In this document: piece by piece, positions 53,008-57,640 of the stretch | How the letters are laid out: the number at the start of each line of letters is the position of its first letter | Position numbering within the stretch: the first letter of the stretch is position 1 | Assembly: GCA_002356215.1 (NCBI GenBank) | Contig: AP017959.1 | Location: forward strand, 310,001 to 374,000 | DNA from: [Synechococcus] sp. NIES-970 | GTDB taxonomy: Bacteria; Cyanobacteriota; Cyanobacteriia; Cyanobacteriales; MRBY01 | Direction of reading: 5' to 3' | Length of the DNA stretch: 64,000 nt | Program-made: the position numbers and the translations under genes | Notes under the pieces: model-generated | Told to the model about the DNA's origin: nothing | Seen by the model: the letters and a program-made list of their open reading frames with translations, nothing else | Database searches by the model: none

Positions 53008-54960
53008 ATGGGCAAAGTAATTGGCATTGATCTCGGCACCACCAATAGCTGCGTTTCTGTCCTTGAGGGCGGAAAACCCATGGTTATTACCAATGCAGAA
53101 GGGGCGCGGACAACTCCCAGCATTGTGGGCTTTGGGAAAAGTGATATTCGTCTTGTTGGGCAATTGGCAAAACGTCAAAGCGTGACTAATGCAGAGAATA
53201 CGGTTTACAGTATCAAGCGCTTCATTGGTCGGCGCTGGGATGATACGGAACAGGAACGGCAGCGTGTGCCGTATAAATGTGTCCGAGGCAAAGATGACAC
53301 CGTAGATGTGGCTATCCGCAAGCAGGTTTTTACGCCCCAGGAAATCTCGGCGATGGTGCTCCAAAAGCTCAAAGCTGATGCTGAAGCTTTTTTAGGGGAA
53401 GAGGTATCCCAAGCGGTGATCACGGTGCCTGCTTATTTTACTGATGCCCAGCGCCAAGCCACCAAAGATGCTGGGACGATCGCCGGCCTAGAAGTGCTCC
53501 GCATCATTAACGAGCCGACCGCCGCCGCCCTTGCCTATGGACTGGATAAGCAAGACCATGAAGAGTTTATCTTGGTGTTTGATCTAGGGGGGGGCACCTT
53601 TGATGTCTCCATTCTCCAGTTGGGGGATGGTGTTTTTGAAGTTAAATCAACCTCTGGCAATAATAAGCTTGGGGGCGATGATTTTGACAGTGCTATTGTG
53701 TCCTGGATGGTAGAAACCTTCCAGCAAAATGAAGGCATTGATCTCAGTGGCGATAAGATGGCGATCCAGCGGCTCCGGGAAGCGGCAGAGAAAGCCAAAA
53801 TCGAACTTTCAAGCACCATCACTACTTCTATTAATCTGCCTTTCATTACCGCCGATGACAGCGGCCCTAAGCATTTTGAGATTGAACTTGCCCGTTCTCA
53901 ATTTGAAGAGCTTGTCCGGGGCTATATTGATGCCACCCTCCGTCCGGTGGAACAAGCTCTCAAGGATGCAGAATTAACCATCGATAACATTGACCGTATT
54001 ATTTTGGTCGGTGGTTCCACCCGTATCCCTGCTGTCCAACAAGCGATCCAAGGCTTTTTTCATGGAAAACAAATTGATCGCTCGGTAAACCCCGATGAGG
54101 CGATCGCCGTTGGCGCCGCCATCCAAGCTGGTGTTCTCAGTGGAGAAGTAAAAGATGTCCTGCTGCTTGATGTCACCCCCATTTCTTTGGGAATTGAAAC
54201 CCTTGGGGAAGTTTTCACAAAAATTATCGACCGGAATACGACGCTCCCCACGAGCAATTCCCAGGTTTTCTCCACCGCCACCGATGGTCAAACTTCCGTA
54301 GAAGTCCATGTGCTCCAGGGGGAACGGGCCCTGGCAAAGGACAATAAAAGTCTGGGGAAATTTTTACTGACGGGAATTCCCCCAGCCCCCAGGGGTTTAC
54401 CACAAATTGAAGTCAGTTTTGAAATTGATGTGAACGGAATTTTGCGTGTTTCGGCTCAGGATCGAGGCACCGGTAAAGAACAGGGCATCAAAATCAGCAA
54501 TACAGGGGGCTTAGACCCGGCAGAAATTGAAGCAATGCGGGCTGAGGCGGCCAAATATGCCGAGCAAGATCGTCAGCGGCTTCAGGTGGTGGATCTACAA
54601 AATCAGGCGGATAGCCTTTTTTATAGCCTTGATTCTACCCTGCGAGAAAATAGCGACCTGATCACCCCAGAAACTAGAACCCAGTTAATCGAAAAACGAG
54701 CTCTCCTGGAGCAATCATTTACCGACCAATCTTTTTCGATCGCCGAAATTCGTCGCCTCCTCGAAGACTTTAAAGATGCTCTTTTGGCGATCGGCTCAAA
54801 ACTTTATGACAGTGAAGGGACGCCGACCTATCGACCCCCCACGGCCTATCCTGTCCAGACCGCAGAAGATGATGGGGTCCTCGACTTCCCTGTAGAACCG
54901 GGTATTGTCATTGAAGGTGGCGAAGGGAGCATCACTGGGGACTACGAAAGTATTGACTAA
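53008..54960 (+). CDS. dnaK: DnaK (Hsp70), DnaK1-type paralogue
   Basis: 650 residues. ATPase domain (1-385) with [31 protein letters not shown] and [14 protein letters not shown], then the substrate-binding domain (about 390-540) and an alpha lid. The C-terminal 50 residues are Pro/Asp/Glu-rich and end GDYESID rather than the EEVD-like ends of other DnaKs. Adjacency to grpE matches Synechocystis grpE-dnaK1 (sll0057-sll0058), so this is most likely DnaK1; cyanobacteria keep other DnaK copies elsewhere, of which DnaK2 is the essential one. Confidence 0.93.
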
Positions 54961-55055
54961 ACGTAGGTTTTGGTGGCAATGCTCCTCTGGTTAGGTTGTT
55001 GCTGGAGTCCTTCAGCTATACTGGCGATTTTTGGCCTGTCGTGAAAGGATGAATT

Positions 55056-55748
55056 ATGGTCAGATTGATTTCGGATTTTGATGGAGTCGTGGTCGATCTC
55101 TCAGAACGTTACTATCACGTTTATCGCTGGCGGTTAACTCAACTCGCCCAACCAGGTCAGGCGATCGCCCCCCTGACTAAGACAGAATTTTGGGCCCTCA
55201 AGCGCCAAAAAGTTTCCCAACGAGAATTGGGCCTTCGTTCCGGTTTAACAGAAGAGCAACTGCCTGAATTTAAGCAGCTCCGGGACGACCACGCCCATCG
55301 CTTGGAGAATATGGTGCACGATCGCCTCATTGAAGGGTCCCTAGAAGCATTGACCGCAGCTAAAACCTGGGGCTGGGAGGTGATGACCGTGACCATGCGC
55401 CGCCACAGCGAACTAAACCAAGCCCTAGCATTACAACCAGAATTACGGGCCGTGTTTCCAGGCGATCGCCGCTTTTGTATCCCTGACACCGCCGAGCGCA
55501 CCCAAGATATTGACCAAAAGCCCGTTCTCTTGGGGGAAACCCTCGCCCAGTTGCCCCCCAGGGAAGCCACTTGGATGGTGGGAGACACTGAAGCTGATAT
55601 CCGCGCTGCCCAACGTCACCGAATTCCTGTGGTGGCCGTGTTATCCGGGATACGCGATCGTCCCCGGCTCGAAGCGCACCAGCCAGATTTTATCGTGGCC
55701 AATCTGTGGGAAGCAGTGCAGCTAATCCGTGAAACAGTCGCCCGCTAG
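55056..55748 (+). CDS. HAD-superfamily phosphatase
   Basis: 230 residues. HAD motif I at the N-terminus (RLISDFDGVVVDLSERY), helical cap (about 20-95), motif II region (EVMTVTMRRHS) and motif III-IV (MVGDTEADIRAAQRHRIPVV). It is similar in plan to phosphoglycolate phosphatase (Gph) but the substrate cannot be assigned. It ends 38 bases before the tRNA-Arg gene on the same strand, so co-transcription is possible. ATG start. Confidence 0.8.
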   Translation: MVRLISDFDGVVVDLSERYYHVYRWRLTQLAQPGQAIAPLTKTEFWALKRQKVSQRELGLRSGLTEEQLPEFKQLRDDHAHRLENMVHDRLIEGSLEALTAAKTWGWEVMTVTMRRHSELNQALALQPELRAVFPGDRRFCIPDTAERTQDIDQKPVLLGETLAQLPPREATWMVGDTEADIRAAQRHRIPVVAVLSGIRDRPRLEAHQPDFIVANLWEAVQLIRETVAR

Positions 55749-55786
55749 ACCGAAAAAAAGCTGTGTTATAATTTTTTCGCCTTATT

Positions 55787-56182
55787 GGGGCTGTGGCTCA
55801 GTAGGATAGAGCAAGCGCCTCCTGAATCGTTCGGGCAGCATGGAGCGGAAACGCCATGGCTGAATGTGGTCAAATTCAAGGAAGCCTAAGTGACCAGTGA
55901 GCTTTTTTAGCAAAAAGTTTGTTGCCATAGGGTAACCCTGAGCCAAGCCCTGCGGTGCCTCGCCGGGGGAAGGTGCAGAGACTAGCGTGTTGGTTTTGGG
56001 GCAATTTTTCGGAAGATCCATCGTTAAATTTAATTTAGCGAAACATCTTCGCCAACAACGCATAACGGCCACCACCTACGGAAAATTTTTAAATTTCTAA
56101 GGTGAAGAGATAGTCCAGAGAGTCGGGGAAACCCACACCAATCTGAAGCGCTAGGTCGCCGGTTCGAATCCGGCCAGTCCCG
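55787..56182 (+). tRNA. tRNA-Arg(CCU), interrupted by a group I intron
   Basis: Exon 1 is 55787-55823 and exon 2 is 56146-56182; spliced length 74 nt. Acceptor GGGGCTG pairs with CAGTCCC (one G-U), discriminator G, no encoded CCA. D stem GCTC/GAGC, anticodon stem AGCGC/GCGCT, loop CTCCTAA with anticodon CCT, variable AGGTC, T arm GCCGG-TTCGAAT-CCGGC. The intron cuts between positions 36 and 37, the usual site for tRNA-Arg(CCU) introns. It reads AGG codons. The joined molecule folds as a standard cloverleaf, so the gene should be functional after splicing. Confidence 0.9.
55824..56145 (+). ncRNA. group I intron (IC3-like) in tRNA-Arg(CCU)
   Basis: 322 nt. P1 forms between exon CCU plus intron GAA (55821-55826) and UUCGGG (55830-55835), giving the required U-G pair at the 5' splice site. 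P2 is capped by a GAAA loop (55848-55851). Core: GAGCCAAG (55940-55947), GTGCAGAGACTAG (55973-55985), and GATAGTCC (56109-56116), with P7 as GACTA/TAGTC. A GGG-GAAA-CCC hairpin (56125-56134) forms P9 and the intron ends in G (56145). Core strings closely match Azoarcus tRNA-Ile and Agrobacterium tRNA-Arg introns as I recall them. An extra arm (56012-56050) lies in the P8 region. No homing-endonuclease ORF. Self-splicing is likely. Confidence 0.88.
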
Positions 56183-56251
56183 TTTTTAAACCATCCTTAT
56201 CAAGGGGAGAGAGTCCCTACAAATCTGGGGGCGATCGCTCCGCGCCAAAAC

Positions 56252-56284
56252 AAAAAAACTCCCACCTCTACTTGAGGTGGGAGT
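56252..56284 (-). terminator. intrinsic terminator downstream of glgC
   Basis: An 11-bp perfect stem (ACTCCCACCTC / GAGGTGGGAGT, 56258-56284) with a 5-base loop is followed on the minus strand by a run of T (plus-strand A's at 56252-56258). It lies 67 bases after the glgC stop. It also guards the tRNA-Arg transcript from the opposite side. Confidence 0.88.
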
Positions 56285-56350
56285 CGGCTATTCAAGCAAA
56301 AAATTGTTTTAAAAAAGTTTACTAAAGCAACCATCAAGAGGGGTGAACTT

Positions 56351-57640
56351 TTAAATCACCGTACCATCGGGAATAATCGCATTTTTGAGCACCACTGTAA
56401 TGCCACTGCGGATGTAGTAGCCTTGCTCCTCGCGGCTGGCTTCCTCGATATTCTCCTTATTGACGATCATCACATTTTTGCCGATGCGAGCATTTTTATC
56501 GACGATCGCCCGCCGGATAGTGCTGCCAGAGCCGATACCAATCGCTGGTTTGCCATTGCGGAGCGCCTCTTGACGTTTCTCATAGGGTTCGTACATGTCA
56601 GCCCCCATGAGCATGCTGTCTTCGATGGTGCAATCCGCCTCAACGCGGGTGCGAATCCCCAAAACCGAATGGTGGATGCGGCAATTTTTCAGAATACACC
56701 CTTCACTAATCATCGATTCAGTGACGTCGGCATTCAAGATTTTCGTGGGCGGTAGATAGCGGGCCCGGGTATAGATCGGTGCCTTTTCGTCATAGAAACT
56801 AAAGGGCGGAATGGGCTGCTGGGTGAGGCCCAAGTTAGCATCATAGAACGCTTCGATAGTCCCAATATCTGCCCAATAATCATCAAATAGATAAGCTTGG
56901 ACGTTGTAGTCTTTCGCTGCATCAGGGATGATTTCTTTGCCGAAGTCGGTTTTGTCTTTGCCTTCCCGGAGCAAATCGAGGAGCACTTGCTTCTTAAAGA
57001 CATAGATCCCCATGGAGGCAATGTAGGGTTTTTCCTTCGCTTGCTCTGCGTTGAGGCCCAAGGATTGGGTGTCAACCTGCATTGCTTTGAGGGCATCACC
57101 AGTAGGCTTTTCGCTGAAATCAACGACCCGGCCACTGGGGTCAATTTTCATCAACCCGAAAGCAGAGGCGACTTTTTCGCCGACGGGCACCACAGAAAGG
57201 GTGATATCGGCATTGGTTTCCCGGTGCCGCTGGATGAATTCGCGATAGTCCATCCGGTAGAGGTGATCACCAGAGAGGATGATGTATTCATCCACATCCC
57301 AGTCTTCCAGGAGCCAACTGTATTGACGCACAGCATCGGCGGTTCCCTGGAACCAATCGGGATTTTCTTTGGTTTGCTGGGCTGCAAGCACTTCCGTAAA
57401 GCCTTCGGTAAACCCAGTGAAGTTGTAAGTCTGGCTGATGTGACGGTTTAAAGATGCTGAATTAAATTGGGTTAAAACGTAAATTTTATGGATTTCAGAA
57501 TTAATGCAATTGCTAACAGGAATATCGATGAGACGATATTTCCCTGCTAGAGGTACTGCGGGCTTAGCTCTGAGCTTTGTTAGCGGATATAGGCGAGTAC
57601 CTGCGCCGCCGCCAAGTATGATTCCTAGGACTCGTTTCAC
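56351..57640 (-). CDS. glgC: GlgC, glucose-1-phosphate adenylyltransferase (ADP-glucose pyrophosphorylase)
   Basis: 429 residues, GTG start. Nucleotide-binding [20 protein letters not shown], substrate motifs ([33 protein letters not shown]) and the left-handed beta-helix tail (about 320-429). It makes ADP-glucose for glycogen and is activated by 3-phosphoglycerate in cyanobacteria; the N-terminal basic loop fits that. Monocistronic with its own terminator; 302 bp separate it from divergent pdxJ. Two structured repeats occur in that gap. Confidence 0.95.

Follow-up and report, generated by a model that had tools for sequence, protein, structure and literature searches.

Background

Group I introns are RNAs that are usually able to excise themselves. 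Those in the tRNA-Arg(CCU) genes of alpha-proteobacteria were reportedly described by Paquin et al. in 1999. Those of Agrobacterium and Bartonella share host gene and intron class with the intron analyzed here, and there, too, tRNA finders miss the gene; they belong to another phylum, however, and are likened to our intron by description. According to the excerpted text of its report, the Bartonella intron BbgpI splices both in vitro and in vivo and is reportedly flanked by CCT repeats (PMC7717549), whereas the intron described below ends in CTG before AAG. Putative group I introns in tRNA-Arg-TCT of Beggiatoa and Thiomargarita (PMC4853749, consulted in excerpt) also interrupt an arginine tRNA, but a different isoacceptor in a different phylum, and are likewise set beside the present one by description.

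In cyanobacteria, group I introns are best known from tRNA-Leu(UAA) and tRNA-fMet, as the original prediction held; these are the only genes named as earlier known in the excerpts consulted of PMC5733544 and of a 2014 review (PMC4033280). The tRNA-Leu(UAA) introns of cyanobacteria and plastids resemble the present intron in their insertion into the anticodon loop, in their Rfam family and, for the cyanobacterial ones, in their phylum, but they occupy a different gene, and 17 of them stood apart from 21 tRNA-Arg introns in a tree. The tRNA-fMet intron of Synechocystis PCC 6803 carries a PD-(D/E)xK endonuclease (PMC1995217, in excerpt). Like the tRNA-Arg family, tRNA-fMet introns are cyanobacterial tRNA introns of which some hold a protein gene; the host gene differs, however, and the proteins of the tRNA-Arg family are of the LAGLIDADG or HNH type. 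Inserts of 22-49 nt reported as group I introns in other cyanobacterial tRNAs (PMC5733544, in excerpt) were rejected as precedents, being too short for a group I core.

The split gene in the window

The window, the whole stretch of 64,000 nt from [Synechococcus] sp. NIES-970 that was analyzed, contains a tRNA-Arg(CCU) gene interrupted in the anticodon loop, between tRNA positions 36 and 37. Its features, all on the forward (+) strand, are as follows.

55787..55823, +, 5' exon of tRNA-Arg(CCU), whose last three bases (55821-55823) are the anticodon CCT (ARAGORN on the joined exons, tRNA-Arg(cct))
55821..55835, +, P1, exon CCU plus intron GAA with TTCGGG; the 5' splice site has U55823.G55833, U.G in 25/25 rows
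55824..56145, +, group I intron, 322 nt, ORF-less, IC3-like (RF00028, 66.3 bits; covariation in 25 homologues)
55866..56072, +, P3, GTGGTC 55866-55871 with GGCCAC 56067-56072; two-sided changes in 4/6 pairs in the family
55876..55941, +, P4 and P5 (family alignment); A.C mismatch 55879/55938 in P4 of the window
55943..55973, +, P6 and P6a; two-sided changes in 6/6 P6a pairs, two tip pairs unformed in the window
55980..56115, +, P7, GACTA 55980-55984 with TAGTC 56111-56115 (sequence, family alignment)
55985..56061, +, P7.1-like extension, GCGTGTTGG 55985-55993 with CCAACAACGC 56052-56061, one bulged A (by eye)
56073..56104, +, P8, CACC 56073-56076 with GGTG 56101-56104 and three more pairs above (family alignment)
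56122..56136, +, P9, GAAA loop at 56128-56131, bulged C56124 (sequence, family alignment)
56145, +, last intron base, G (omega-G) (sequence; introns end in CTG in nearly all extracted relatives)
56146..56182, +, 3' exon of tRNA-Arg(CCU), CCA not encoded (sequence; ARAGORN on the joined exons)

ARAGORN found zero tRNA genes in the intact 64-kb window and returned tRNA-Arg(cct) when the exons 55787-55823 and 56146-56182 were joined; as the intron lies within the gene, tRNA-Arg(CCU) escapes a standard tRNA finder here. A search with the Rfam model Intron_gpI (RF00028), the check proposed together with the original prediction, gave a full-length match at 55814-56138 (model 1-253, E 1.3e-14, 66.3 bits where the gathering score is 50); nothing else in the window reached an Rfam gathering score. 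The match starts inside the exon because P1 takes in exon bases. A looser Rfam scan of 54800-57000 added only mir-208, far under its gathering score. The landmarks predicted from the letters were all recovered: the break after position 36 with a 322-nt insert, a complete tRNA with a CCU anticodon on joining, the U-G pair of P1 at the splice site, the GACTA/TAGTC pairing of P7, the GAAA hairpin of P9 and the 3'-terminal G. Together with the covariation described below, a split tRNA-Arg(CCU) gene with a group I intron is confirmed as real and well supported.

The terminal CTG is near-universal among the extracted introns, that of locus L142 ending in CAG instead. By its motifs, the intron is tentatively classed as IC3-like. 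Its core motifs seem to resemble those of the Azoarcus tRNA-Ile group I intron (IC3), which lies in a different gene and phylum, and its P7.1-like extension is presumably atypical for IC3. From what is known of group I introns in general, P7 is taken to be the guanosine site. The intron encodes no homing endonuclease, the longest stop-to-stop frame being 52 codons on its own strand and 84 on the opposite one. Upstream of the split tRNA lies a HAD-like gene (55056-55748), which also precedes the tRNA, within 0.8 kb, in the five other genomes of the same genus among the 60 nearest (L003, L004, L005, L006 and L012). The intron of L004 is the same as that of Picosynechococcus sp. PCC 7117 (L144).

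The tRNA set of the window genome

The genome (3.12 Mb, 5 contigs) contains one RF00028 match. A tRNA search found 44 other tRNA genes, none of them interrupted, all 44 being named by ARAGORN in 41 stretches. None of these 44 uninterrupted genes has a CCT anticodon, those for arginine carrying ACG, CCG and TCT, and the interrupted gene is therefore the only tRNA-Arg(CCU) found. The tRNA-Leu(UAA) gene is uninterrupted in this genome, although a group I intron is present there in many cyanobacteria, and three CAT tRNAs, among which tRNA-fMet is counted without being told apart, are uninterrupted as well. In window frames of at least 250 codons, taken unfiltered from all six reading frames, AGG accounts for 29 of 13,577 codons. 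Splicing might be dispensable, as a tRNA-Arg(UCU) that may also decode AGG is present.

Covariation in the intron family

The intron was aligned with homologues to give 25 rows, consisting of the window intron and introns of 230-275 nt, each less than 86% alike. The family structure of 83 pairs was drawn from the relative L032; since L032 is one of the aligned rows, the structure is by itself favored over slid versions of it. Under this structure 96.9% of 1976 cells were paired, compared with 32.1-41.5% when the partners were slid by 1-3 columns as a control. Two-sided changes occurred in 38/83 pairs against 21.2 +/- 2.2 in shuffles, and 0/500 shuffles reached as many. P4 exists in two compensated forms, AAG/CUU in 15/25 rows and GGU/ACC in 10/25, the A.C of the window being the sole mismatch among their cells. 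The weakest helices were P2 (84.7% paired) and P7.1 (83.7%), the latter missing from 11/25 rows.

In the window row, 75/83 family pairs are formed. The eight unformed ones comprise four in P7.1, attributable to the alignment register, one A.C each in P4 and P5, and the two pairs that would close the tip of P6a. The folding energy of the precursor was better than that of 100/100 dinucleotide shuffles (z -2.79), while the minimum-energy fold of the single window sequence differs from the catalytic fold. The covariation in 25 homologues is better evidence than the shuffle test.

The locus might be a dead remnant, that is, a tRNA-Arg(CCU) pseudogene with AGG read by tRNA-Arg(UCU) alone. The rarity of AGG in the window and the presence of tRNA-Arg(UCU) would fit such a loss, which is nevertheless highly improbable given that the exon stems have all their pairs in the window and in nearly all of the 25 rows, that the intron core covaries and that the junctions are conserved across many families.

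Very probably, a group I intron (IC3-like) interrupts the sole tRNA-Arg(CCU) gene found; it would be excised by the group I mechanism. The precursor RNA would fold into the group I core, with the anticodon CCU pairing with the guide GGG as P1 and the U.G pair at the splice site. Bound in P7, a guanosine would attack after U36, the freed 5' exon would then attack after G56145, and the joined tRNA-Arg(CCU) would read AGG codons. The sequence, the fold through covariation, the conserved junctions and the lack of an intact copy among the tRNA genes found were seen directly; catalysis and splicing in the cell, possibly with help from a protein, are what we infer. Against this explanation stand the A.C mismatches of the window in P4 and P5, the two unformed P6a pairs and the non-catalytic minimum-energy fold.

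Distribution among cyanobacteria

An exact pattern for the interrupted junction in the anticodon arm matched 32/386 genomes of the phylum, the window genome included. All 32 belong to the order of the window, Cyanobacteriales (105 of the 386 genomes by our own count), compared with 0/281 elsewhere. These 32 are a lower bound, as the pattern misses some introns such as that of G404 (L043). An intact arm, with up to three mismatches allowed, was found in 51/105 genomes of the order and in 0/32 interrupted ones, while 22 matched neither pattern. The phylum total of the intact pattern (179/386) was set aside as unusable, because many three-mismatch matches outside the order read CCTTCT, which corresponds to a UCU anticodon. 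Among the 60 nearest genomes, 52 were matched by the query DNA, some through the exons alone, and in relatives such as G010, G014, G032 and G042 the exons are contiguous and the site is empty.

A scan of GTDB genomes gave at least 118 stretches, 117 of those listed bearing cyanobacterial titles. Hosts among the matches listed include Okeania, Moorena, Trichodesmium erythraeum, Planktothrix, Nostoc, Calothrix, Crocosphaera, Microcoleus vaginatus and Arthrospira sp. PCC 9108. The one titled Gracilibacteria (L151) adjoins Hydrococcus in the tree and is probably a misplaced contig. Two diatom endosymbionts, at the loci L050 and L110, also retain the intron: that of Epithemia turgida, with a record of 2.79 Mb, and that of Rhopalodia gibberula, with one of 3.02 Mb. 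The split tRNA locus was unmatched in plasmids, and 16/16 junction-pattern matches in viral contigs were discarded as carriers, having no matching exons.

The 118 listed GTDB loci were combined with 44 from genome searches, resulting in a set of 162, in which both exons were paired in 154 (110/118 and 44/44) and unpaired in eight. The introns of the 154 listed loci measure 204-969 nt, 134 being distinct. Joining the exons produced tRNA-Arg(cct) for the window and for 29/29 further loci tested. Long inserts seem to hide group I introns: L143, L158 and L171 were unmatched by Rfam at gathering score, and all three have core pieces and tRNA exons despite this.

Descent of the intron

Cores were obtained from 151/154 introns (132 distinct) and a tree was built from 304 columns by a quick method, leaving 56/129 inner branches open. 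The 36 host labels required 53 changes on this tree (minimum 35) against a shuffled mean of 90.2, with 0/200 shuffles as low; Nostocaceae and Calotrichaceae each required one change, with supports of 97 and 7, respectively. Because the core tree clusters by host family, descent appears to have been mainly vertical with the hosts in Cyanobacteriales, with exceptions. Microcoleaceae required nine changes, contrary to purely vertical descent, although this count is inflated by the mixing of named and coded labels.

Within Microcoleus, introns at the same site have two P4 types, GGT in L025, L088, L100, L136, L137 and L149, and AAG in L052 and L135. The two types hint at replacement by transfer.

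In a joint tree of tRNA introns from cyanobacteria, those of Leu (17 rows) and those of Asn (5 rows) each formed one group (100/100). The Arg introns (21 rows) required two changes under midpoint rooting, which leaves their unity unproven; they required one change in 14% of 200 bootstrap trees, the bootstrap being unsettled. The intron might instead have been copied recently from the cyanobacterial tRNA-Leu(UAA) intron into a tRNA-Arg gene, as both are group I introns of the anticodon loop with similar core motifs. This is exceedingly improbable: no Arg row fell inside the Leu group, which is set off by a branch of 1.65 in the tree with the unsettled bootstrap, and the window genome holds its own tRNA-Leu(UAA) gene without an intron.

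In five relatives tRNA-Asn(GUU) is also interrupted by group I introns, of 275-898 nt, and the joined exons give tRNA-Asn(gtt). These loci are L206 (G006), L207 (G059), L213 (G058), L219 (G037) and L171 (G036), the last with a LAGLIDADG frame that has acidic residues in both motifs.

Proteins inside introns of relatives

Introns longer than 600 nt make up 27/154 listed loci, 25 with a LAGLIDADG frame and two with HNH. The HNH frames lie antisense, on the strand opposite the tRNA, in L143 (Chroococcidiopsidaceae YX2bin18, intron of 678 nt) and L158 (Atlanticothrix silvestris CENA357, 674 nt), and match Pfam HNH_2 at 1.5e-10 and 5.7e-9, respectively. The LAGLIDADG frames occupy the site of the P7.1-like extension of the window intron. 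All seven of their proteins scanned match PF03161 (E 9.9e-23 to 1.7e-38).

After four duplicates had been dropped, 21 distinct LAGLIDADG sequences remained, in which the catalytic residues were placed by alignment to I-SceI and I-WcaI. The second catalytic residue is non-acidic in 21/21 (R in 10, K in 6, C in 2, and N, Q and S), and the first is D in 5/21 and E in 1/21. An acid in both motifs, as in an active LAGLIDADG homing endonuclease, was found in 0/21 tRNA-Arg intron frames. Nineteen of the 21 frames run uninterrupted for 207 codons or more, counted between stops, those of L028 (169) and L030 (125) being broken. Among 19 sequences, dN/dS was 0.09-0.38 in the 35/171 pairs with dS below 1.5; close pairs lacking both acids gave 0.12-0.33. 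The Symploca protein was modelled from a 17-row alignment (pLDDT 89.8, pTM 0.87), and the model was nearest to I-WcaI (E 6.2e-12) and I-SceI (8.4e-11), with the bI3 maturase eighth. The length of 19/21 frames and the low dN/dS, despite the non-acidic second residue, suggest that the protein may be a maturase, though it may have another role, for instance that of a repressor.

The LAGLIDADG protein was matched in 10/60 relatives: seven times in tRNA-Arg introns, once in a tRNA-Asn intron and twice, weakly, in DnaX frames. Frames of 335-339 aa with LAGLIDADG similarity lie over or opposite an intein-like dnaX stretch in L172 (G005) and L173 (G012). No confirmed relative was found in viral contigs, where close relatives only were searched; nine records of annotated phages matched the protein at 26.0-34.8% identity.

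Such a conserved protein, together with the imperfect pairs of the window intron, might mean that this intron is unable to splice alone and requires a host chaperone or a maturase. We regard this as rather unlikely, since no LAGLIDADG relative, free-standing or other, was found in the window genome by the search that was positive in 10/60 relatives, and since BbgpI, the closest functional precedent, self-splices in vitro according to the text excerpted (PMC7717549).

Significance of the family

The kind of intron is known, and the cyanobacterial tRNA-Arg(CCU) family appears undescribed within the open-licence literature, where no description was met in the texts consulted, a number of them in excerpt; one may exist elsewhere. 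It appears to be a further tRNA-intron family in Cyanobacteriales beside those of Leu(UAA) and fMet, the two that the 2014 review (PMC4033280) lists for cyanobacterial group I introns.

Taken jointly, the observations could be read as an old, mainly vertical Cyanobacteriales family, overlooked because tRNA finders skip the gene, in which a homing endonuclease became a dedicated maturase in several lineages. Judged from sequence comparisons, this joint reading has an even chance of being right. If it is, an I-SceI-like protein would have remained under purifying selection even after losing its catalytic acids, because splicing is needed for the only CCU tRNA, and the ORF-less forms, that of the window included, would manage without a maturase.

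Across relatives, one and the same site occurs in four states: without an intron, with an ORF-less intron, with an intron whose LAGLIDADG frame is conserved but nuclease-dead by its residues, and with an intron that has an antisense HNH frame. A single gene could thus serve to study how a homing endonuclease turns into a maturase, and Picosynechococcus sp. PCC 7117, which has the same locus, offers a cultured host for experiments.
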